Below, one piece after another: positions 1,960 through 12,300 of a DNA stretch of 42,758 nucleotides. The position numbers were made by a program, and so were the translations under genes. Numbering within the stretch: position 1 is the stretch's first letter; every line of letters begins with the position of its first letter. Origin of the DNA: an uncultured Cytophagaceae bacterium. GTDB lineage: Bacteria; Bacteroidota; Bacteroidia; Cytophagales; Spirosomataceae. The stretch covers positions 1 to 42,758 of the forward strand of contig CAIVPF010000065.1 in the NCBI GenBank assembly GCA_903907745.1. Direction: 5' to 3'. The notes under the pieces were generated by a model. The model saw nothing but the letters and a program-made list of their open reading frames with translations, was not told the DNA's origin and ran no database searches.

Positions 1960-2790
1960 TTGCAAGCGAGCGAATTAATTTTTGAAGTAATGAAAGGCCA
2001 AGCTCAGGATTCTGAGCTTATTTGGACGGAACAAAAATCCTCCTTAGACCTAAAAGGCCTCTCCCTAGCCTTTGTCATGTGCCCTCGTTTTATCAGCAAA
2101 AAAATCGTTGCGCATGCATCGAGCGTTTTGCCCGGTTGGACTTTTCAAAATTGGACCTTAGATCGATTAGTTCGCGTCTTTTTTTTGTCTTTGATGGCCG
2201 AAAAATCAAGCGACGAACAGGCCTACACCCATCAAATGAATCTCTTATTTGATACCGCGGAAATGAATGAGGCGGTCGCATTGTATAGCGCTATGCCTGT
2301 TTTTAGCCATGGAGACAAATGGTTATTGAGGGCAACCGATGCCGTCCGCTCAAACATCGGCATTGTTTTTGATGCCATTGCCTTTGGAAATCCCTATCCT
2401 GCGACCTATTTTCCTGAATTAGCCTGGAATCAATTAGTTCTCAAATGCATATTTAATGATAAGCCCATACATCAGATTTTTGGATTAATGGAACGAAATA
2501 ATCCTTCCTTAGTCCAAACCCTATCTGATTTTGCACACGAGCGCTGGGCTGCTGGCCGACGTGTACCATCCCAAGTTTGGCGATTGTATTCGCCTTACCT
2601 AAATGAAAACTTAGTGCAGGATATCGACTATTTATTAAGTCACGAGGATCCCAATGACGTGTTAGCCGGGACCTTGGTCCTACAAGAATCGAATTTTTCA
2701 GGCGCAAAAGCCTTACAAGAAAAATATGGAATCCAAGCGAATAAAGACCTTTCGTGGGCAACGCTTGAAAACCCCGAACCCATTTATTAA
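1960..2790 (+). CDS. eboA: EboA family protein (first gene of ebo cluster)
   Basis: The 276-residue alpha-helical protein is identified as EboA mainly by position, directly upstream of eboB-F, and by the family-like segment 'LAFVMCPRFISKK' near residues 36-48. It has no signal peptide or clear transmembrane segment. EboA is a domain of unknown biochemistry required, with its partners, for ebo function. Start choice is uncertain: the frame opens at TTG 1960, while the first ATG is at 1990. The residues between them form a continuous predicted helix with what follows, so TTG was kept. A TACCTTGC sequence at 1956-1963 resembles a degraded -7 box and, if real, would favour ATG 1990. The stop is 12 bp before eboB. 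Confidence 0.8.
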   Translation: MQASELIFEVMKGQAQDSELIWTEQKSSLDLKGLSLAFVMCPRFISKKIVAHASSVLPGWTFQNWTLDRLVRVFFLSLMAEKSSDEQAYTHQMNLLFDTAEMNEAVALYSAMPVFSHGDKWLLRATDAVRSNIGIVFDAIAFGNPYPATYFPELAWNQLVLKCIFNDKPIHQIFGLMERNNPSLVQTLSDFAHERWAAGRRVPSQVWRLYSPYLNENLVQDIDYLLSHEDPNDVLAGTLVLQESNFSGAKALQEKYGIQANKDLSWATLENPEPIY

Positions 2791-2802
2791 GCCTAGGCAA
2801 TT

Positions 2803-3822
2803 ATGTGTACGAATCCACACCAACAAGATCTAAATCCTTCGCATTTCGAAGGTTCCGAAGAAGAAAAAATCACTGCCTCCGAGGTAGAACATGGTTTTCT
2901 TCCCCACATTCAGGGTATGAAATTTTTCGACCCGCACATGCACATGTCGTCCAGAACAACGGATGATTATCAAGCCTTAGCCGATGCAGGCGTGGTAGCC
3001 TTGATCGAGCCATCATTTTGGTTGGGCCAACCGAGAACGGGTCTCGCATCCTTTCAAGATTATTTCGCCAGTTTAGTCGGCTGGGAACGCTTTCGCAGTT
3101 CGCAGTTTGGCATCAAACATTATTGCACCATCGGACTGAATTCTCGGGAAGCCAATAACGAAGCTCTAGCCGAACAGGTGATGGAAATTTTACCATTATT
3201 CTTACAAAAAGAAGGCGTAGTCGGTGTAGGCGAGATCGGTTTCGACGATCAAACCGCTGCTGAAGAAAAATATTACCGGGCCCAATTAGAACTCGCCAAG
3301 GAAATGGGCTTGCCTGTTCAAGTTCACACGCCCCATCGAGATAAGAAAAAAGGAACCGAACGAAGCATGGCCATCGCTTTGGAACATGGCTTGGCGCCGA
3401 ACATGGTCATCATCGACCACAATAACGAAGAGACGTGTAAATCTGTCCTCGATCAAGGATTTTATGCCGCATTTACCATTTATCCATTTACCAAAATGGG
3501 AAATGAACGCATGGTCGAAATCGTCAAACAATACGGACCCACCCGAATCATGGTGAATTCCGCAGCGGATTGGGGAATTTCAGATCCTTTGGCATTACCT
3601 AAAACGGCTGCTTTAATGAAAATAAAAGGCATTGATGACGAAACAATCCGACAAGTTACCTACCAAAATGCCCTACATGCATTTGCACAAAGTGGTCAAA
3701 TTCAAGAAAGTGATTTTATTCATGGCTTAGAAATCGATCAATCCTTAAAATTCAATGGCAACACCGTTTTACGCGGTGGACAAGCGCCTCGTGTCAATAA
3801 AAACTCCTTGATCATCCGCTAA
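2803..3822 (+). CDS. eboB: EboB, TatD-like metal-dependent hydrolase
   Basis: The 339-residue protein is an amidohydrolase/TatD-like TIM barrel. Candidate metal ligands are the HxH pair in 'FDPHMHM' (H45, H47), Glu in 'GVGEIGFDD', His in 'VQVHTPHRD', 'IIDHNNEE' and Asp in 'NSAADWGISDP'. TatD-family enzymes are divalent-metal hydrolases, but EboB is a distinct subgroup whose substrate is unknown. No signal peptide is seen, so it is probably cytoplasmic. The first ~35 residues are polar and precede the barrel. It follows eboA by 12 bp and its TAA overlaps the ATG of eboC (TAATG), indicating translational coupling within the ebo cluster. Confidence 0.93.
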   Translation: MCTNPHQQDLNPSHFEGSEEEKITASEVEHGFLPHIQGMKFFDPHMHMSSRTTDDYQALADAGVVALIEPSFWLGQPRTGLASFQDYFASLVGWERFRSSQFGIKHYCTIGLNSREANNEALAEQVMEILPLFLQKEGVVGVGEIGFDDQTAAEEKYYRAQLELAKEMGLPVQVHTPHRDKKKGTERSMAIALEHGLAPNMVIIDHNNEETCKSVLDQGFYAAFTIYPFTKMGNERMVEIVKQYGPTRIMVNSAADWGISDPLALPKTAALMKIKGIDDETIRQVTYQNALHAFAQSGQIQESDFIHGLEIDQSLKFNGNTVLRGGQAPRVNKNSLIIR

Positions 3823-4706
3823 TGTCAAAAGTCCGGGCCTTTCTAGAATTAATGAGACCGGCTAATGTGGTCACTGCCTTCACCGATATTGCAGCAGGTA
3901 TGGCCATCGTAGGCTATGTATTTGGCAAAGAAATGAACCTACTCCTTCCATTAGCTACCCTTGGTTTTAGTTCGATGGCCTTGTACGCGGGTGGGGTAGT
4001 ATTTAATGATATTTTTGATCAGGAATTAGATGCCGTGGAGCGACCGGAACGAGCCCTTCCGAGTGGTCGAATTAAACGCCAAGAAGCTATTTTCGGAGGA
4101 ATTGCATTATTGGCTCTTGGGATTTTTCTTGCTTTTTGGCAAAGTCGATTGAGTGGGTATTTATCCATCTTGATTACAATTCTCGCCCTTTTTTACGATG
4201 CCAAAGGTAAGCATATGCGGATATTTGGGCCGATTAATATGGGATTATGTCGGGCGGTCAACCTAGGCTTGGGCATGAGCGTATATAATGTGGGTTTTTT
4301 AGAACACGGGGCCTTGATGTTAATTCCTCTGATTTACATCGCTGCCATCACGCTAGTTTCTCGTGGAGAGGTTCATGGAAGTCATGCGAATCCACTTTGG
4401 TTTGCGGCTATTTTGTATTTAATTGTTCATGCCTCACAGATCTGGGCAGCGAATTCGGCTGGGCATTTAGCCTTTGGATTGCCCTTTATCTTGGTTCATG
4501 CCTATTTGATTTTAAGTAAATTAGCGGTGGCCATACGGGATCCTAAGGGCCCAAACATAGGCAAATCCGTTAAAATGGGGGTTTTGACCTTGATTCTAAT
4601 GAACGCCACCTGGGTCAGTCTAAGTGGTCAATGGGAAATGGGAATCTTTATACTTTTTCTGCTTCCTATATCGATTCAATTAGGTAAAAAGTTTGCCGTT
4701 ACTTAA
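3822..4706 (+). CDS. eboC: EboC, UbiA-family membrane prenyltransferase
   Basis: The 294-residue protein is strongly hydrophobic, with about eight or nine membrane segments. It carries the UbiA prenyltransferase signature NDxxDxxxD (N62, D63, D66, D70 in 'NDIFDQELD') followed by 'RPERALPSGRI', plus the second conserved loop beginning 'YDAKGK'. UbiA enzymes use these Asp residues to bind Mg-diphosphate of a prenyl donor and transfer the prenyl chain to an aromatic or sugar acceptor in the membrane. In the ebo cluster the donor and acceptor are unknown; membrane anchoring of a metabolite is a reasonable inference. The start overlaps the eboB stop by one base, and the stop is 9 bp before eboD. 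Confidence 0.94.
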   Translation: MSKVRAFLELMRPANVVTAFTDIAAGMAIVGYVFGKEMNLLLPLATLGFSSMALYAGGVVFNDIFDQELDAVERPERALPSGRIKRQEAIFGGIALLALGIFLAFWQSRLSGYLSILITILALFYDAKGKHMRIFGPINMGLCRAVNLGLGMSVYNVGFLEHGALMLIPLIYIAAITLVSRGEVHGSHANPLWFAAILYLIVHASQIWAANSAGHLAFGLPFILVHAYLILSKLAVAIRDPKGPNIGKSVKMGVLTLILMNATWVSLSGQWEMGIFILFLLPISIQLGKKFAVT

Positions 4707-4715
4707 ATTTGACGC

Positions 4716-5861
4716 ATGCAATCGTTACAACAATCTTTCCAAGTACCTTTTAGGTACGAAGTCTTCTTCACCCAAAACCTATTTGAACCCAGTAATTCGA
4801 TGTTTGGGGACTTTATTCGGCATTTTGGGAATCCAGCATTTAGAAAAAGAATTTTATTTGTGATCGATAAAGGGGTTGCTGATGCACACCCTAGCCTGAC
4901 TAGCCACATCATCCAGTATTTCTCAGATGGGCAAATTGCAGATTTATCCCCAGAAATTTTAGTATTACCTGGTGGCGAAATTTGCAAAAATGATCCTAGA
5001 TTTTACGAAGAGGTCGTTCGGGCCATTGATGAGCATCGCATCGACCGCCATTCATTTGTGGCAGCCATCGGTGGCGGTGCATTTTTAGATATGTCGGGCT
5101 ATGCCGCCGCCATTTCTCACCGAGGAGTTAAATTCATCCGCATCCCTACCACCGTTTTATCTCAAAACGATTCAGGTGTCGGGGTCAAAAATGGCGTCAA
5201 TTACCTAGGTAAAAAGAATTTCTTAGGCACCTTCGCCCCTGCTGTGGCGGTTTTTAATGATATGCATTTCCTACGAACGCTTGGTGACCGGGATTGGCGA
5301 TCGGGTATTGCGGAAGCAATTAAGGTAGCTTTAATTAAAGATTTGGCGTTTTTTGAATGGCTAGAACAACATGCGGCTGATATGAACGCGCGCAACGAGC
5401 CGGTCATGATGGAACAAATTTACCGCTGTGCCGAATTACACATGCAACATATTTCCTCTGGGGATCCTTTTGAATTAGGTTCGGCTCGACCTTTGGATTT
5501 TGGGCATTGGGCCGCACATAAATTGGAATACCTAAGTAATTTCGAAATCCGCCACGGCGAGGCTGTGGCCATTGGAATCGCTTTAGATTGCGTTTATTCG
5601 CATTTAAAAGGGCAAATCTCCCATGAGGATTTAGATCGAATCATCCATTTAATTCGCACCTTAGGATTCGATTTATTCCATCCGGCTTTGGCAGAAAATG
5701 ATAAAATCAATTTACATAAAGGCCTTCAAGAATTTCAAGAACATTTAGGTGGTCATTTAACGATTACCTTATTAGTAGCTCTAGGTAAAGGCCAAGAAGT
5801 TCATGAAATGGATTTTGATATCATTAAAAAATCGGTGGATTATTTAGCCGAATTAAGTTAA
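4716..5861 (+). CDS. eboD: EboD, 3-dehydroquinate synthase-like sugar phosphate cyclase
   Basis: This 381-residue protein belongs to the dehydroquinate synthase fold (sugar phosphate cyclases). Visible are 'GGGAFLDMSGYAA' (NAD-binding loop, residues 119-131), 'RIPTTVLSQNDSGVGVKNG' (142-160), and the metal ligands E200 ('GIAEAIK'), H264 ('DFGHWAAHK') and H280 ('RHGEAVAIG'). Housekeeping AroB makes dehydroquinate; related cyclases such as 2-epi-5-epi-valiolone synthase use sedoheptulose 7-phosphate. The ebo context makes EboD the right call rather than AroB, and its exact product is unsettled. All metal ligands are present, so catalytic activity is expected. It starts 9 bp after eboC and ends 1 bp before eboE. 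Confidence 0.93.
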   Translation: MQSLQQSFQVPFRYEVFFTQNLFEPSNSMFGDFIRHFGNPAFRKRILFVIDKGVADAHPSLTSHIIQYFSDGQIADLSPEILVLPGGEICKNDPRFYEEVVRAIDEHRIDRHSFVAAIGGGAFLDMSGYAAAISHRGVKFIRIPTTVLSQNDSGVGVKNGVNYLGKKNFLGTFAPAVAVFNDMHFLRTLGDRDWRSGIAEAIKVALIKDLAFFEWLEQHAADMNARNEPVMMEQIYRCAELHMQHISSGDPFELGSARPLDFGHWAAHKLEYLSNFEIRHGEAVAIGIALDCVYSHLKGQISHEDLDRIIHLIRTLGFDLFHPALAENDKINLHKGLQEFQEHLGGHLTITLLVALGKGQEVHEMDFDIIKKSVDYLAELS

Positions 5862-5862
5862 T

Positions 5863-7056
5863 ATGAAAACAGACCAAGGCCATTTGAGCTATTGCAGCAA
5901 TATCCACCCGGGTGAAATCTGGGACCTACATTTTGCTGAATTACAAAAAAATGTCCCCCTAGTCAAAGCCCAAGTCGCCCCCAATCAAGCCATGGGATTA
6001 GGCCTGCGCATCGCGAATCAAGCCAGCATCGACTTACAGGATTCATCCGCCTTTGAGGCATTGAAATCCTGGTTAGGCAAAGAAAATCTATATGTATTCA
6101 CCTTAAATGGCTTTCCCTATGGTGGTTTTCATGATACCATCGTAAAAGATCAGGTGCATGCGCCCGATTGGACCACGCAGGAACGCTACGATTATACGCT
6201 TCGCTTAGCACATTTATTAGCCAAGCTAATGCCCGAAAACGAACATGAAGGTGGTATTTCAACCTCCCCCATTTCTTATAAATATTGGTGGAATAGCCCC
6301 GAAAAGCTACACGATGCGACGAAAAAAGGAACGTTGGCTCTTTTGGAACTCGTTGTCGCCCTAGCTGATTTAGAAAAATCCACCGGCAAATGGATTCATA
6401 TTGACATCGAACCCGAACCGGATGGGATTCTGGAAAATCACAGGGAATTCGTGGATTGGTATGAAAACGTGTATTTACCCATGGGCATCGAATTTTTAGG
6501 CAAAAAAGGGATGCCTGACTCGGATGATTTGTTGCGCCGACATGTCCAATTATGCTTCGATATTTGCCATTACGGCGTTAGTTTCGACAAACCCGCTACT
6601 TGCATCCAAGAATTAGTCGACAAGCATATACCCGTCGGGAAAATTCAAATCTCCTCCGCCCTCCGCGTGGATTTACGAGAAAATCCCCTAGCCCAAATCG
6701 AAACGCTTAAAAAATACCATGAACCCGTTTATTTGCATCAGGTAAAAGCTTTTGGCAAGGACGGGACATTTATTCAATACCGTGATTTAGATGAGGCCAT
6801 TGCCGATTTCAATCCGGATCGAGATGATGAATGGCGCGTACATTTTCATGTACCTTTGTTTTTGGAAAATTATGGGATTTTGGGATCGACCCAACAAGAA
6901 ATTCGGGAAACCATGGCCATCCAAAAATCAAATCCGTTTACCCGACATTTGGAAATCGAAACTTATACATGGGGAGTTTTACCGACCGAATTCCAGGTAC
7001 CCATGGACCAATCGATTAGTCGGGAAATCCAATACATTCAAGGTCTTTTAAAATAA
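5863..7056 (+). CDS. eboE: EboE, metabolite traffic protein (TIM-barrel)
   Basis: The 397-residue protein matches EboE: it opens 'HLSYCSNIHPGEIWD' and contains 'LNGFPYGGFH' (81-90), 'HEGGISTSPISYKYWW' (128-143), 'IHIDIEPEPDG' (178-188) and 'LCFDICHYGVS' (230-240). These acidic/His stretches at strand ends fit a xylose-isomerase-like TIM barrel with a metal site. The family is annotated as 'metabolite traffic protein EboE', and mutation work on cyanobacterial ebo genes ties the cluster to movement of scytonemin precursors to the periplasm. No signal peptide is visible, so it probably acts in the cytoplasm. It begins one base after the eboD stop and ends 5 bp before eboF. Confidence 0.93.
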   Translation: MKTDQGHLSYCSNIHPGEIWDLHFAELQKNVPLVKAQVAPNQAMGLGLRIANQASIDLQDSSAFEALKSWLGKENLYVFTLNGFPYGGFHDTIVKDQVHAPDWTTQERYDYTLRLAHLLAKLMPENEHEGGISTSPISYKYWWNSPEKLHDATKKGTLALLELVVALADLEKSTGKWIHIDIEPEPDGILENHREFVDWYENVYLPMGIEFLGKKGMPDSDDLLRRHVQLCFDICHYGVSFDKPATCIQELVDKHIPVGKIQISSALRVDLRENPLAQIETLKKYHEPVYLHQVKAFGKDGTFIQYRDLDEAIADFNPDRDDEWRVHFHVPLFLENYGILGSTQQEIRETMAIQKSNPFTRHLEIETYTWGVLPTEFQVPMDQSISREIQYIQGLLK

Positions 7057-7061
7057 TTGAG

Positions 7062-8423
7062 ATGCAAAAAACTGTTGTCATCGACATCGTTGGTCTTTCC
7101 GAAAGCATTATTTCGGATTATACCCCCTTTTTAAAATCCTACATCGCCAAAAACCACATCAGTAAAATAAAACCCGTGCTTCCTGCGGTAACCACCACTT
7201 CACAAAGCGTCTACGTCACCGGAAAATATCCGAAGGATCATGGTATTGTAGGGAATGGTTGGTACGATCACACGGATGCCGAGGTGAAATTTTGGAAGCA
7301 ATCCAATCATTTAGTTGGCGCCGAAAAAGTATGGGACGAAGCCAAAAAACGAAATCCCTCCTTTACCTGCGCGAAGATGTTTTGGTGGTATAACATGTAT
7401 TCGACGGCTGATTATTCAGTTACACCCCGACCGCAATACCACCAGGACGGTGTCAAAGCGCCCGATTGCTATTCCTATCCGGCCGAACTTCGCGATGAAT
7501 TACAAGCAAAATTGGGCACATTTCCCTTGTTTAGTTTTTGGGGACCGAACGCGAACATCAAATCCTCGAAATGGATCGCTGATGCTTCCATGCATGTGGA
7601 TGCGCTTTATGACCCGACCTTACAGCTGATTTACCTGCCTCATTTGGATTATTGTTTACAAAAATTCGGCGTAGACTTGCCCAAAATCAAAAAAGAATTA
7701 GGCGAAATCGATGCGCTGATTGAAGAATTAGTCACCTATTTTGAAGGCAAAGGCGCTGATATTATTTTACTATCTGAATACGGGATCAATAATGTGACAG
7801 AACCGATTCATGTGAACCGGGTATTGCGAAGGCATGGCTATTTATCCATCCGAGAGGAACAAGGACTCGAATTATTAGACGCAGGTGCTAGCGCAGCTTT
7901 TGCGGTTTCAGATCATCAGATTTCACATATATACGTAAAAAATAAGGCTCAAATTCCTGAAATCAAGGCGCTTTTATCCGCGATTCCGGGGGTAGCGAAG
8001 GTGCTAGATGCCAAGGAAAAAAAGGAAAATCATATCGATCATTCCAGGGCGGGCGATTTGATTTTGATTGCGGATACCGACAAATGGTTTACATATTATT
8101 ATTGGTTGGACGATGCGAAGGCCCCAGATTTTGCTCGTTGTGTCGAAATCTTCAAAAAACCAGGCTATGATCCCGTGGAAATGTTCATGGATCCGAGTAA
8201 TCCATTGATCAAATTAAAGGCCGGTTATAAGTTGGCCCGCAAACTCAGCGGTTTCCGCTATTTGATGAATGTGATACCTTTGGACGCAACATTAATTAAA
8301 GGTTCCCATGGAAGTCCGGATTGTGCCAAAGAATTTTATCCGGTTTTCATCTCAAAAAACAAGCAAGTGGACGAAATTGTGCCTACTGACGTGTACAATT
8401 TAATTTTAAATAGCATTTTCTAA
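7062..8423 (+). CDS. eboF: EboF, alkaline phosphatase/nucleotide pyrophosphatase-family protein
   Basis: The 453-residue protein belongs to the type I phosphodiesterase/nucleotide pyrophosphatase branch of the alkaline phosphatase superfamily. Visible are the N-terminal metal-binding Asp8 ('VVIDIVG'), the nucleophile region 'PAVTTTSQSVYVTGKYP' (41-57), 'DHGIVGNGWYDH' (59-70), 'YLPHLDYCLQKFG' around residue 190 and 'LSEYGINNV' around residue 240. No signal peptide is present. The usual DHG metal-ligand triplet of the superfamily reads E-Y-G here, so metal binding may be atypical. The substrate is unknown; removal of a phosphate or pyrophosphate from the ebo product is a plausible role. It is the last ebo gene; 39 bp of AT-rich sequence follow without a terminator hairpin. 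Confidence 0.92.
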   Translation: MQKTVVIDIVGLSESIISDYTPFLKSYIAKNHISKIKPVLPAVTTTSQSVYVTGKYPKDHGIVGNGWYDHTDAEVKFWKQSNHLVGAEKVWDEAKKRNPSFTCAKMFWWYNMYSTADYSVTPRPQYHQDGVKAPDCYSYPAELRDELQAKLGTFPLFSFWGPNANIKSSKWIADASMHVDALYDPTLQLIYLPHLDYCLQKFGVDLPKIKKELGEIDALIEELVTYFEGKGADIILLSEYGINNVTEPIHVNRVLRRHGYLSIREEQGLELLDAGASAAFAVSDHQISHIYVKNKAQIPEIKALLSAIPGVAKVLDAKEKKENHIDHSRAGDLILIADTDKWFTYYYWLDDAKAPDFARCVEIFKKPGYDPVEMFMDPSNPLIKLKAGYKLARKLSGFRYLMNVIPLDATLIKGSHGSPDCAKEFYPVFISKNKQVDEIVPTDVYNLILNSIF

Positions 8424-8462: not shown

Positions 8463-8825
8463 ATGAAAAAAATAATCGCAAGTTTGGCAGTAATGGTAGC
8501 ATTGCTAGGTTACTCAAATGAGGTTTCTGCACAGGACTTCAACCCACAAATGATGGTTCAACGTCAAATGGAACGTATGAGCACTGAACTAACATTAAGC
8601 AAGGACCAAGAGAAAAAAATGGAACCGCTTTTATTAGCTCGTATGGAAAAAATGATGGCATTCCGGGACGCAGGTATGGAGCGTGAGGCGATGCAGGCGG
8701 AGATGAAAAAGGTGAATGATGCCCAATTGGAGCAATTGAAAGCTATTTTAACGCCAGAGCAATTGGAAAAATACAAAACAATGCAAAGCCAAATGCGTCA
8801 AGGCGGCGGCGGTCCAAGAAACTAA
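8463..8825 (+). CDS. Exported Met-rich small protein, Spy/CpxP-like (LTxxQ)
   Basis: The 120-residue product has a clear signal peptide (MKKIIASLAVMVALLG, cleavage probably after 'EVSAQ'). The mature part is helical and charged, with two LTxxQ-like motifs, 'LTLSKDQ' and 'LTPEQLEKY', as in Spy/CpxP-type periplasmic chaperones and metal-stress proteins. Fifteen of 120 residues are Met, many in the mature helices, and the tail is Gly-rich (GGGGPRN). A periplasmic chaperone or metal-responsive role is inferred from these motifs. A 7/8 match to the -7 box (TAGATTTC, 8435-8442) lies upstream, so it may have its own promoter. The stop is 1 bp before the following isomerase gene, suggesting co-translation. 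Confidence 0.82.
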   Translation: MKKIIASLAVMVALLGYSNEVSAQDFNPQMMVQRQMERMSTELTLSKDQEKKMEPLLLARMEKMMAFRDAGMEREAMQAEMKKVNDAQLEQLKAILTPEQLEKYKTMQSQMRQGGGGPRN

Positions 8826-8826
8826 T

Positions 8827-9672
8827 ATGAACAAAACTACATTCCTCTTCATTTGCTTATTGGCAAATTCCCTTTTCGCTCAATCCATACCGAAAGTAAA
8901 CGGTGTTCCTTTGGGCATGGTATCTTATACATACCGATTTAGCCTTCAAAAAGATATGCCAAAAACCTTGGATTCACTGAAATCCTTGCAAATTTTGGAT
9001 ATGGAATTTTCGAGTTTATTCGGAAAAAAGGCCCAGGAAATTCGCCAATTATTAGATGAACGAGGAATGTATTGTTCTTCTTTAGGAGTTAGTTACCAAG
9101 AGGCATTGAACAAGCCTGAGGAAGTTGCGGCCAACGCTAAAACGCTCGGCGCGAAATTTGTTCGTGTCGCCTGGATTCCCCATGATAAACCGATGGACCT
9201 GGCACTAGCCGATAAAACCATCGCTGATTTTACGAAAATCGGCAAGGTATTTAAAGACCAATATGGACTTGAATTCTGCTACCACAACCATGGATTTGAG
9301 TTTACCCCCTATCAAGATGGGACCTATTTTGATTACATCGCTAAAAACACGGATCCCAATTATGTGAATTTCGAAATGGACATTTTGTGGACCTTTTTCC
9401 CAGGCATGGATCCAGCCAAAATTTTATTGCAATACCCGAAACGCTTTAAATTGATGCATGTCAAGGATTTAAGAAAAGGGATTGTTGGGAATTTCTCAGG
9501 ACAAACCTCCCCAGAAAACGATGTGGCTTTGGGCACGGGTCAATTAAACCTACCCGCGATCATCAAAGCGGCTAAAAAGGCGAAAATCCAACACTATTAC
9601 ATCGAGGATGAAAGTTCGAATCATGCGAATCAATTGCCTCAATCCATTCAATATTTGGAACAATTGCGTTAA
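8827..9672 (+). CDS. Exported sugar phosphate isomerase/epimerase-like TIM-barrel protein
   Basis: The 281-residue protein starts with a signal peptide (MNKTTFLFICLLANSLFAQ). It continues with a xylose-isomerase-like TIM barrel (AP endonuclease family 2): 'PLGMVSYTYRF' at the start, 'DMEFSSLFGK', 'FCYHNHGFEF' near residue 150, 'FEMDILWTF', 'KLMHVKDLRKG' and 'YYIEDES' near the end, which supply the Glu/Asp/His metal ligands. Secreted members of this family are frequent in Bacteroidota glycan loci, where they act on (keto-)sugars in the periplasm; the substrate cannot be read from sequence. It starts 1 bp after the Spy-like gene. Its TAA overlaps the ATG of a decayed sigma-factor gene (TAATG), so the original operon probably continued with a regulatory gene. 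Confidence 0.87.
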   Translation: MNKTTFLFICLLANSLFAQSIPKVNGVPLGMVSYTYRFSLQKDMPKTLDSLKSLQILDMEFSSLFGKKAQEIRQLLDERGMYCSSLGVSYQEALNKPEEVAANAKTLGAKFVRVAWIPHDKPMDLALADKTIADFTKIGKVFKDQYGLEFCYHNHGFEFTPYQDGTYFDYIAKNTDPNYVNFEMDILWTFFPGMDPAKILLQYPKRFKLMHVKDLRKGIVGNFSGQTSPENDVALGTGQLNLPAIIKAAKKAKIQHYYIEDESSNHANQLPQSIQYLEQLR

Positions 9673-9786
9673 TGCCACCTAGCCTACTATTAGATGAGCA
9701 GCTTTTCGCCGCCTTTAAAAAGGGCGATGGCGGTTGAAAAAATCTACTAAAGCTATTTTTCAGGCTTAGTATTGTATGGTTTTAAG
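9672..9786 (+). pseudogene. N-terminal remnant of an ECF sigma-70 factor (frameshift and nonsense)
   Basis: From ATG 9672 the frame reads MPPSLLLDEQLFAAFKKGDGG and stops at 9735-9737. Shifting by +1 at about 9730 continues it as 'AVEKIY', a TAA at 9748-9750 (probably from CAA), then 'SYFSGLVLYGFK'. Joined, this resembles the first helices of Bacteroidetes-type ECF sigma factors (D-x-x-L-hydrophobic...FKKGD...F-x-x-IY-x-x-Y). The rest of the protein is missing. A frameshift, a stop and a truncation within about 115 bp show the gene is dead. Such sigma factors usually sit with a FecR anti-sigma gene and SusC/SusD genes; none remain here. The assignment rests on motif resemblance over about 38 residues. 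Confidence 0.6.
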
Positions 9787-9802
9787 GATCGCTTTTGTTT
9801 AA

Positions 9803-10042
9803 AAATTGACGATCCAATTAGCCAATCAAAAGAAATTCATCATCCAAGCACCCCGCAATTCTCCTGAGAATGTGTACATTCAAGACCTGAAATGGAATGG
9901 GAAAACATGGAACAAAAATTACATCTTACACAAACAATTACAGGAAGGTGGTAGTTTTACCTTCACGATGTCAAATAAAGCAAATAAAACTCGGGGAATC
10001 GGGGTCGCAGCTGAACCTTTTTCAATGACTAAAGCTCAATAA
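9803..10042 (+). pseudogene. C-terminal remnant of a GH92 alpha-mannosidase
   Basis: An open stretch of 79 codons without a credible start (only TTG at 9806; in-frame TAA at 9800-9802) encodes the typical GH92 tail: 'NVYIQDLKWNGKTWNKNYI', then 'HKQLQEGGSFTFTMSNK'. In GH92 exo-mannosidases this region (…NxYIQxxxxNGxxxxxxYI.H..…GG.L.F.M…) ends the last beta-sandwich domain. The catalytic (alpha/alpha)6 barrel and everything else upstream is absent. The stop codon precedes the beta-helix gene by 3 bp, so the ancestral GH92 gene was probably in the same operon. Together with the sigma-factor remnant immediately upstream it marks a deletion scar. Confidence 0.75.
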
Positions 10043-10045
10043 ACA

Positions 10046-11245
10046 ATGAAAAAATCATTTTTACTTATTTTTCTAATCAGCTCTTTCGCGGCGTTTGCCC
10101 AAGCCGATTTTGAGAAAAAATTACAAACCAAATTGATTTTAGCCGAGGACGGAACTACCATCGAGATTGAAGCTGGCACCTTTTTCCTGACCAAAAGCCT
10201 CTCCTTAGAAGGTAAAAAAAACATCACCTTACGAGGCAAGGGCATCGATAAAACCGTATTAAGTTTTAAAAACCAAATACAGGGTGCGGAAGGGATTAAA
10301 ATTACCAATTGCGAAAACATCGTCCTCGAGGACATGACTACCCAAGATTCCAAAGGCGATTTAATCAAAACCATGCAAGTCAAAGGCATGACTTTTCGCC
10401 GCCTGAAAGCCGAATGGTCCGGCAAGCCCAAAGCCAGCAATGGCAGTTATGCCTTCTATCCCGTACTTTGCGAAAATGTGATGATTGATAGTTGCATCGC
10501 CATCGGCGCCTCAGACGCCGGTATTTATGTGGGTCAATCCAAGCATATTGTGGTGAAAAATTGTACCGCCTTTCAGAACGTGGCGGGTATTGAAATTGAA
10601 AATTCCTTGTTTGCTGAGGTATTCAATAACACGGCCATCGGAAATACAGGTGGGATTTTGGTATTTGATCTACCCGGTTTGATTCAAAAAAAAGGAGGCT
10701 ATGTGAAGGTCCATCACAATATCGTGAAGGAAAATAATTTATCAAATTTCGCACCCAAAGGTAATATCGTAGGCAACGTTCCCAAAGGTACCGGCATGAT
10801 GATCCTCGCAGCCAGCCATGTGGAAATCTATGAAAATCAGATATTGAATCATGCGACGATGGGAGTCGCCGTGATCAGTTATTACATGACGGGATTAAAA
10901 AATAAGGATAAGGAATATGATCCTTACCCGACCGACATTCAGATCCACAACAATACCTTCGAACGTAAAGCCGGTCGCGTACCGATGGAAGGGCGATTTG
11001 GCCAGATGTATCGAATTAAATTGAAATTCGGAACCCAAGTTCCCCATGTCATTTTTGATGGAATATTGGATGAAAAAAAAGTGGGCAAAGATGGGAAATA
11101 CCTGCCTGAATTTGCCATCTGCGTCCGTGAAAACAATGGACAAAGCAGTGCCATCATCGATGCCGAACATGATTTCAAAAACATTATTTCTGGACCAGAT
11201 GCACTGAATTGTAATCCCGAATCCATTAAATCGATCCAATTTTAA
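10046..11245 (+). CDS. Exported parallel beta-helix repeat protein (TIGR03805-like)
   Basis: The 399-residue protein has a signal peptide (MKKSFLLIFLISSFAAFAQ). It continues with right-handed beta-helix rungs of the type 'KNITLRGKGIDKTVLSF', 'ENIVLEDMTTQDSKGD', 'KHIVVKNCTAFQNVAGIEIE', 'SHVEIYENQI' and 'TDIQIHNNTF'. The overall form matches the 'parallel beta-helix repeat-containing protein' family that is regularly encoded next to an SO2930-type diheme cytochrome, which is exactly the next gene (stop and start overlap as TAATG). The function of this pair has not been established. Parallel beta-helices often act on polysaccharides, but no lyase or hydrolase catalytic motif could be identified here. 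It sits 3 bp after the GH92 remnant. Confidence 0.85.
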   Translation: MKKSFLLIFLISSFAAFAQADFEKKLQTKLILAEDGTTIEIEAGTFFLTKSLSLEGKKNITLRGKGIDKTVLSFKNQIQGAEGIKITNCENIVLEDMTTQDSKGDLIKTMQVKGMTFRRLKAEWSGKPKASNGSYAFYPVLCENVMIDSCIAIGASDAGIYVGQSKHIVVKNCTAFQNVAGIEIENSLFAEVFNNTAIGNTGGILVFDLPGLIQKKGGYVKVHHNIVKENNLSNFAPKGNIVGNVPKGTGMMILAASHVEIYENQILNHATMGVAVISYYMTGLKNKDKEYDPYPTDIQIHNNTFERKAGRVPMEGRFGQMYRIKLKFGTQVPHVIFDGILDEKKVGKDGKYLPEFAICVRENNGQSSAIIDAEHDFKNIISGPDALNCNPESIKSIQF

Positions 11246-12300
11246 TGAGACGGCTTCATGTTATTTTCTTGATTTGGTTGGCAGCAGGCATGTTAATGTC
11301 TATCACCGATTTTTCAACGAAAGAATTTAATTATCCAGAAAAATTATCTGAATACGGATTTTTTGAGGGCAACATGAAGGAACAAATCCCAGCCGCGGAC
11401 GTTGTTCCATATGCCCTAAATTCGCCTTTATTCTCTGATTATGCCTATAAATTACGTTTCCTGCGCATTCCAAAAGGTCAAAAAACCGCCTATAATCCAG
11501 ATTCTGTATTGCAATTCCCCGTGGGGACCGCCATCGTCAAAACCTTTTATTACAAAAACGACGAACGAAATGATAAAAAGGGACGCCAACTCATGGAGAC
11601 CCGCGTCCTTTTACATGAGGCTAAAGGCTGGGTAGCCCTTCCCTATATTTGGAATAAAGAACAAACAGAGGCTACGCTCGAAGTGGCGGGAGGAACCCAA
11701 TTAGTCGCCTGGCGCGATCAAGAAGGAAATAAAAAATCCATGGAATATTTTGTTCCGAATATGAACCAATGCAAAGGTTGCCACGAAAAATCTGGCAAAA
11801 TGACGCCGATTGGGCCTTCGGTACGCCAACTCAATGGTGATTTCGAATACCAGCACAACCTCAAAGAAAACCAATTAAGCCACTTGAAAAACCTAGGCCT
11901 GCTCGAAAATCTACCCGAGAAGAGCTCTGAAATTCCGAAAATTCCAGCCTTCAACGATCCCAATGCTTCTCTTGATCTACGAGCCCGAGGATATTTGGAT
12001 ATCAATTGTGCCCATTGTCATAACCCAGCCGGCCCTGCCAGATCATCCGGCTTGTTTTTATCCTGGGGAAATACGAATAAAAGCGCCTATGGATTTTTCA
12101 AAGCACCCATCGCCGCAGGTCGAGGTTCTGGAAATTTGGCCTATGACATTGTCCCAGGAAAATCCCACGAAAGCATTTTGGCCTACCGCATGAATTCCGC
12201 TGACCCAGGCATCATGATGCCTGAATTAGGCAGAAAACTGATTCACAAGGAAGGCGTCGCATTAATCAACGCATGGATTCAATCCATGGAAACCAAATAA
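11245..12300 (+). CDS. SO2930-family diheme c-type cytochrome
   Basis: The 351-residue protein has a hydrophobic N-terminal export segment (residues 4-20). It has two haem c attachment motifs: CKGCH at 176-180 and CAHCH at 255-259. 'MNQCKGCHEKSGKMTPIGPS' and 'GYLDINCAHCHNPAGPARSS' are characteristic of the TIGR03806/SO2930 family. 'MMPELGRKLIHKEG' near the C-terminus supplies a likely distal Met ligand. It should sit in the periplasm and carry electrons to or from a partner; the adjacent beta-helix protein is the conserved neighbour. The stop lies 2 bp before the sulfatase start, so this is one operon. Confidence 0.9.
   Translation: MRRLHVIFLIWLAAGMLMSITDFSTKEFNYPEKLSEYGFFEGNMKEQIPAADVVPYALNSPLFSDYAYKLRFLRIPKGQKTAYNPDSVLQFPVGTAIVKTFYYKNDERNDKKGRQLMETRVLLHEAKGWVALPYIWNKEQTEATLEVAGGTQLVAWRDQEGNKKSMEYFVPNMNQCKGCHEKSGKMTPIGPSVRQLNGDFEYQHNLKENQLSHLKNLGLLENLPEKSSEIPKIPAFNDPNASLDLRARGYLDINCAHCHNPAGPARSSGLFLSWGNTNKSAYGFFKAPIAAGRGSGNLAYDIVPGKSHESILAYRMNSADPGIMMPELGRKLIHKEGVALINAWIQSMETK

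Follow-up and report, generated by a model that had tools for sequence, protein, structure and literature searches.

The ebo operon was named in a 2016 paper, which proposed an isoprenoid-cyclitol product with sedoheptulose 7-phosphate as the likely substrate of EboD, and which placed EboD near the sedoheptulose 7-phosphate cyclases in its tree (PMC5133447). The operon is carried by plastids, cyanobacteria, Pseudomonas and many Bacteroidota. In a 2018 study of Nostoc, the ebo mutants examined retained the scytonemin monomer in the cytoplasm, eboD being outside the analysis as presented there, and a glycolipid-like carrier was proposed (PMC6282210). Insertions in the eboA, eboD or eboE homologs of Pseudomonas gave a nematode-edible phenotype (Burlinson et al., as cited in PMC6282210), and EboC homologs were reported in 2022 to have farnesyltransferase activity on quinoline acids (PMC9235831). 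The operon has also been reported in a Rickettsiaceae endosymbiont of eustigmatophyte algae (PMC6092422). Here, we analyzed the ebo operon located at positions 1960-8423 of a 42,758-nucleotide stretch of DNA from an uncultured Cytophagaceae bacterium (contig CAIVPF010000065.1), hereafter called the window. The locus is a plain copy of a known ebo operon type and is itself ordinary; the main finding concerns its relatives, in some of which EboD is exchanged for an inositol-3-phosphate synthase (MIPS) and a TIM-barrel enzyme, here called the partner.

Our reading, to which we assign a probability of roughly 0.6, is that the ebo operon makes a small lipid associated with the membrane, in which a sugar-derived cyclitol is joined to a prenyl chain, and that this product helps a partner small molecule to cross a membrane. 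The supply of the cyclitol, by EboD or by MIPS and its partner, is the best-supported part of this explanation.

In a sample of 296 Bacteroidota genomes, EboE was identified in 24, and EboD was located beside it in 23 of these. The exception (G178) carried MIPS and no EboD, and the family and genus of this genome were therefore searched. EboE was present in 18 of the 298 genomes in the family. EboD was above the cut-off in 15 of the 18, split into two pieces in one (G339) and absent from two; both genomes without EboD contained MIPS, while the other 16 contained EboD and no MIPS. In the genus, which belongs to the same phylum as the window, EboE was found in 11 of 21 genomes (all at least 90% complete except G600 with 88% and G601 with 55%). 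MIPS was present in ten of the 21 genomes, all of which contained ebo, and a search run as a test identified EboD above the cut-off in a single genome (G598), the sole ebo-containing member of the genus without MIPS. The partner was present in the same ten genomes as MIPS and in none of the 11 others, and the ten genomes of the genus without ebo contained neither MIPS nor EboD above the cut-off. Fisher's test for the association between MIPS and ebo gave 3.4e-5 for these genomes, which are related to each other. The operon is ordered A-B-C-E-F in the ten genomes with MIPS and A-B-C-D-E-F in G598. Since MIPS is not near ebo in the genus, being located on another contig in nine genomes and about 650 kb away in G592, the pattern is not explained by linkage.

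Two genomic settings of MIPS were observed in the genus. In five genomes (G178, G592, G593, G596, G603), MIPS is located directly with its partner, and in six of the ten genomes with the exchange (G567, G589, G594, G596, G597, G602) it is placed beside a methyltransferase, a Gfo/Idh oxidoreductase and a YcaO protein. The partner is inside the YcaO cluster in four of these six, and none was identified in the stretches covering the cluster in the other two (L180, L212). The profiles were run on one of the clusters (L213), and the other five were assigned by their similarity to it. The YcaO cluster (L180, L212, L213, L215, L216, L219, with a similar one in L081 on a Hymenobacter plasmid) consists of MIPS, an unknown protein, the methyltransferase, the Gfo/Idh/MocA oxidoreductase, a second unknown protein, YcaO and often a sugar-isomerase-like TIM barrel. 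It looks like an undescribed cyclitol pathway.

The same exchange was observed on plasmids. Two Streptomyces plasmid loci (L072, L073) encode, in this order, MIPS, a UbiA protein, a TIM barrel, EboA, EboB, EboE and EboF, and no EboD. Among 48 plasmid records with EboE, MIPS was located within 5.2 kb in 29 and EboD within 2.5 kb in 15, none contained both cyclases, and four contained neither (three from Streptomyces, one of which was inspected and represents a lone EboE, and one with the match at the end of the record). The partner was present in 33 records, including all 29 with MIPS. Many of the Streptomyces rows are near-duplicates, so the 29 records do not represent 29 independent events. 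A lone EboE was observed in a type II polyketide cluster in Streptomyces sp. NBC_01244 (L076 8995-10173), where the annotation shows no further ebo gene over about 9 kb, and an EboD is encoded by a Gloeothece plasmid (NC_014533 702294-703427) with no EboE match listed in the same record.

A joint phylogeny of EboB, EboC and EboF with 44 tips implied four changes between the EboD-type and the MIPS-type, and the single-gene trees implied three to five; G249, which lacks B and C, was part of the set. Gemmatirosa (MIPS) paired with Deinococcus (EboD) in the joint tree, as did G589 (MIPS) with G182 (EboD); the remaining nine MIPS genomes grouped with Aureibacter and G598, which both have EboD. The single-gene trees were concordant on G589 and discordant on Gemmatirosa. 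Aligned to the Archaeoglobus enzyme, the ebo MIPS of Streptomyces has retained the lysines in whose place 3qvw and 3qvx have alanine, suggesting that the ebo-associated MIPS is probably active. The partner resembles ketose epimerases and hydroxypyruvate isomerases, which score better than its weak match (28 bits) to the inosose dehydratase IolE.

In three haloarchaeal plasmid loci (L079, L080, L083), MIPS is accompanied by a protein of the nucleotide pyrophosphatase/phosphodiesterase (NPP) family, a TatD protein, a UbiA protein and a pair of TIM barrels. In Halocatena, the TatD protein shares 43% identity with EboB, the NPP protein shares 32% with EboF and 40% with the Streptomyces EboF, and the best NCBIfam match of the UbiA protein is EboC, with 178 bits and thus under the cut-off of 250. 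A broader proposal, which we put forward tentatively and consider more doubtful than not, is that ebo represents one form of a widespread pathway in Bacteria and haloarchaea for an undescribed prenyl-cyclitol membrane lipid. Its ring would be formed out of glucose 6-phosphate, either by EboD or by an inositol synthase acting with an epimerase-like enzyme, and in the export of small molecules the lipid would function as their carrier or as a flippable head group.

The window's locus consists of six contiguous genes in the order A to F on one strand, listed below with the two flanking genes.

883-1884, + strand: family-2 glycosyltransferase (PF00535), 75 bp upstream of eboA and outside the core
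1960-2790, + strand: eboA, with a TTG start; all-helical, alpha-solenoid-like model, a possible scaffold
2803-3822, + strand: eboB, TatD/amidohydrolase-like metal enzyme with HxH at 45/47
3822-4706, + strand: eboC, intramembrane prenyltransferase of the UbiA superfamily with NDxxDxxxD
4716-5861, + strand: eboD, sugar phosphate cyclase, kin to dehydroquinate synthase yet distinct
5863-7056, + strand: eboE, TIM barrel of the ketose-3-epimerase/xylose-isomerase fold
7062-8423, + strand: eboF, NPP-like protein of the alkaline phosphatase superfamily with an altered metal site
8463-8825, + strand: small protein with a signal-like N-terminus, 39 bp downstream of eboF, a frequent neighbor outside the core

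An earlier reading of the window from its sequence alone (the sequence-only reading) had described a complete eboA-F cluster, and both the six open reading frames and the family profiles agree with it. The gaps from eboA to eboF that it gave (12, -1, 9, 1 and 5 bases) were reproduced, and the motifs that it quoted are present at the residues named (NDIFDQELD in EboC, H45 and H47 in EboB, and E200, H264 and H280 in EboD). Its observation that no scytonemin genes adjoin the operon is consistent with the family matches of the ten window proteins scanned, among which ScyA-F were not searched by name. It had also proposed a comparison of gene order among relatives. The complete ABCDEF order was found in 28 of 36 related loci, one of which has eboE in two frames; another seven are broken by contig ends and one is cyanobacterial with eboD inverted upstream. 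The order is thus not due to chance, since it is conserved among these loci. In two genomes (L035; L063/L064) eboE is broken into two frames, perhaps by assembly errors.

The source genome is a 2.79-Mb draft of 165 contigs that is 93% complete, of the Cytophagaceae type and distantly related to Aquirufa. Its EboE is most similar to proteins from metagenome-assembled genomes labelled Cytophagaceae (at most 85% identity) or Spirosoma fluviale (at most 72%), and shows 65-67% identity to those of named Aquirufa isolates. Among the 29 related loci that extend past eboA, 16 have the glycosyltransferase upstream of it, and the glycosyltransferase was for this reason rejected as a core gene of the pathway. 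Downstream, positions 8827-12300 of the window encode a sugar-isomerase-type TIM barrel with a signal-peptide-like N-terminus, a beta-helix protein (TIGR03805) and another protein; parts of this set recur downstream of ebo in many Aquirufa-type loci. Next to ebo in Aureibacter, Mycetohabitans and G166 is a pair consisting of an unknown protein of about 590-630 residues and a ferritin-like protein, with PF12902 in L066 (L066 3052-6112, L070 4063-7081 and L098).

EboA matches the EboA domain with 162 bits (cut-off 50) and falls under the cut-off of the full-length EboA_family (188 versus 320 bits). Its predicted model is all-helical and alpha-solenoid-like, and EboA may belong to the HEAT/alpha-solenoid scaffolds. 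EboB matches PF01026 with 67 bits, its nearest solved chain is 3guw, and the residues H45, H47, E144, H175, H178, D205 and H206 are kept in all 43 aligned sequences; it had no match in a search against phage records. EboC is assigned to the EboC prenyltransferases by NF035940 (350 bits, cut-off 250) and its NDxxDxxxD motif, and the closest solved chain is digeranylgeranylglyceryl phosphate (DGGGP) synthase, 6m31. EboE matches its NCBIfam with 475 bits (cut-off 250). It had no match among the sequences of solved structures up to an E-value of 1, and its xylose-isomerase-like TIM-barrel fold was found from the predicted model. EboF belongs to the Type I phosphodiesterase/NPP family (PF01663, 201 bits, gathering cut-off 23) and departs from its two-metal site, which we take to consist of D312, H316, D359, H360 and H475 in NPP2. 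In an alignment to NPP2 that is low-scoring around the metal sites, the equivalent of D359 is Glu in 43 of 44 EboFs, that of H360 is Tyr in 44 of 44 and that of H316 is Gln in 42 of 44. The equivalents of D312 and H475 are kept, the position of the latter being set by a motif that we presume to be the right one. With two to three of the family metal ligands replaced in nearly all EboFs compared, the description of EboF as phosphatase-like in the sequence-only reading is weakened, and the altered site suggests a binding role or unusual chemistry.

EboD matches PF01761/PF24621, as well as PRK06203 with 558 bits (cut-off 333). Its metal ligands E200, H264 and H280 and the catalytic Asp/Lys/Asn core are invariant in 74 non-redundant EboDs (117 matches, reduced to 82 distinct strings and to 74 after removal of truncated or near-identical ones), which places it in the sugar phosphate cyclase superfamily. 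It is not the sole protein of the dehydroquinate synthase (DHQS) family in its genome, which encodes a separate AroB (G000:C7:8594). At the sites of AroB Lys250, Arg264, Asn268 and Lys356, in what we take to be Aspergillus numbering, the window's EboD has His, Ala, Asp and Gln. The first of these sites is His, the second Ala or Ser and the third Asp in 74 of 74 EboDs. At the Lys356 site, 73 of 74 have Arg or Gln, in a column that is uncertain because there are two adjacent candidates, the other of which is Glu in 73 EboDs. Each of the four sites is kept in 32 of 33 AroB-type sequences, a set whose size did not change on the same filtering. Lys250 and Arg264 bind the substrate in DHQS, and their replacement in EboD implies that a substrate other than 3-deoxy-D-arabino-heptulosonate 7-phosphate is to be expected. 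It is thus unlikely, from these residues, that EboD acts as a dehydroquinate synthase, and its identification as the housekeeping DHQS was rejected because of the separate AroB and the replaced AroB residues. On a plasmid of Salipiger sp. CCB-MM3 (L069 8079-9980), EboD is N-terminally fused to a VTT (DedA-type) membrane domain, and a second ebo set is located on another plasmid (L075) of the same strain. DedA proteins move lipids, and this lone fusion hints at lipid movement, which would fit a lipid carrier.

From the families, gene order, cyclase exchange and residue changes, all of which are read directly from the sequences, we infer the substrates, the order of the steps, the prenyl-cyclitol bond and the carrier role along the following lines. 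EboD would cyclize a sugar phosphate to a ketocyclitol with loss of the phosphate, in a reaction dependent on NAD and a metal, as in its superfamily. In other lineages, MIPS and the ketose-epimerase-like TIM barrel would take over the corresponding step, with glucose 6-phosphate as the starting compound. EboE, with its epimerase/isomerase fold, and the TatD-like metal enzyme EboB would adjust the ring, to which EboC, as an intramembrane prenyltransferase nearest to the archaeal DGGGP synthase, would attach a prenyl chain. EboA may act as a helical scaffold, and EboF, an NPP-fold protein, may be involved in binding or unusual chemistry. By analogy with Nostoc, the one case in which ebo is shown to be required for moving a small molecule across the membrane (PMC6282210), the product probably aids a partner small molecule across the inner membrane.

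The exchange suggests that EboD on the one hand, and MIPS with its partner on the other, probably supply equivalent cyclitols. MIPS makes the C6 compound inositol phosphate from glucose 6-phosphate, and a C6 ring is therefore more likely than the C7 ring proposed in 2016, provided that the later enzymes do not take either one. The link to inositol weakens the published proposal of sedoheptulose 7-phosphate. That proposal nevertheless leads to the strongest alternative, which we consider unlikely but worth keeping in view, namely that EboD converts sedoheptulose 7-phosphate to a C7 cyclitol, that the later enzymes tolerate C7 or inositol-type C6 rings, and that the product of the MIPS-type clusters is related but different. 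The position of EboD in the 2016 tree (PMC5133447) is in line with this, as is the Asp that EboD shares with the valiolone synthase ValA at the N268 site. Against it, the same five other Ebo families accompany either cyclase within one genus and MIPS yields a C6 product; furthermore, the H275 site is Pro in ValA and His in 74 of 74 EboDs, in a comparison limited to a few of the 14 fingerprint sites.

It is less probable still that dehydration turns the cyclitol into a polyhydroxylated aromatic ring and that prenylation of this ring by EboC yields a (hydro)quinone redox cofactor rather than a transport carrier. The farnesylation of quinoline acids by EboC homologs (PMC9235831) would suit such a product, as would the weak match of the MIPS partner to IolE. 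However, the partner fits the epimerase/isomerase families better, nothing shows aromatization, and the scytonemin phenotype is one of localization (PMC6282210). Finally, that EboD is an additional 3-dehydroquinate synthase supplying aromatic metabolism, as its database name and its PRK06203 match would have it, is highly improbable given the separate AroB, the replacement of Lys250 and Arg264 in 74 of 74 EboDs where 32 of 33 AroB-type sequences keep them, and the fact that a MIPS replacement cannot supply dehydroquinate.

Several observations weigh against a prenyl-cyclitol lipid whose ring comes from either cyclase. Judging from an AroB tree of 20 genus genomes and three outgroups (G599, which gave no DHQS-family match, is absent), nine of the ten MIPS genomes form one clade and G589 is placed apart, so that the pattern in the genus would rest on about two gains. 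Five of the ten genomes with the exchange have their sole MIPS in the YcaO cluster, while G596 has both settings, and the MIPS so placed may therefore serve the pathway of that cluster. In G567, MIPS and the partner are on different contigs. G203 has EboD together with a different MIPS, which is 43% identical to the exchanged type and has no partner within the 12 kb fetched. The UbiA gene of Gemmatirosa groups with those of Streptomyces, so a larger module, beyond the cyclase, may have moved there. One of the four haloarchaeal MIPS loci inspected, in Halomarina, is located among glycosyltransferases with no ebo-like genes. The phosphate is retained in the product of MIPS and should be released by EboD, so the two products would not be identical without further steps. 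Moreover, UbiA-297 was assayed on aromatic acceptors only, of which 6 of 14 were farnesylated (PMC9235831). We retain the exchange of EboD for MIPS and its partner as our reading because MIPS and the partner are common to the ten genomes and the ten members of the genus without ebo have no MIPS.

The sequence-only reading had suggested a prenylated cyclitol-type lipid or carrier, thereby restating the published hypotheses of an isoprenoid-cyclitol (PMC5133447) and a lipid carrier (PMC6282210). The cyclitol half of this suggestion gains independent support from the exchange; the prenyl bond to the cyclitol and the carrier role are putative. The exchange was not found in the open literature searched, a scope that excludes subscription papers and preprints, and the word "inositol" has no occurrences in the main texts, supplements aside, of PMC5133447, PMC9235831 and PMC6282210; relative to the papers searched, the exchange of EboD for the inositol synthase pair is new. 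Its repeated occurrence indicates the kind of molecule to look for, one with a sugar-derived ring as a building block, and thereby offers a way to find the product.

In comparison with known systems, the window corresponds to the ABCDEF type of the ebo operon, known from Bacteroidetes, Cyanobacteria, Leptospira and eustigmatophyte plastids, with the same six families in the same order (PMC5133447). No difference from this type was found, and the neighbors in the window are those of its close relatives. The ebo cluster of Nostoc punctiforme contains genes homologous to those in the window, but its eboD is nearby and inverted, whereas the eboD of the window is inside the operon and scytonemin genes were not seen in the window (PMC6282210). 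UbiA-297, a farnesyltransferase in vitro, corresponds to the EboC of ebo clusters (PMC9235831). The haloarchaeal MIPS-UbiA-TatD-NPP clusters resemble ebo in their homologs of EboB, EboC and EboF and an EboE-like TIM barrel; unlike ebo, they lack an annotated EboA or EboD over the stretches inspected, and they contain MIPS as the cyclase and two short TIM barrels. The actinobacterial SCO3242-type clusters (Streptomyces L072, L073) likewise combine homologs of UbiA, EboA, EboB, EboE and EboF in one operon, as in ebo, and differ from it in having MIPS and the TIM-barrel partner where EboD would be.

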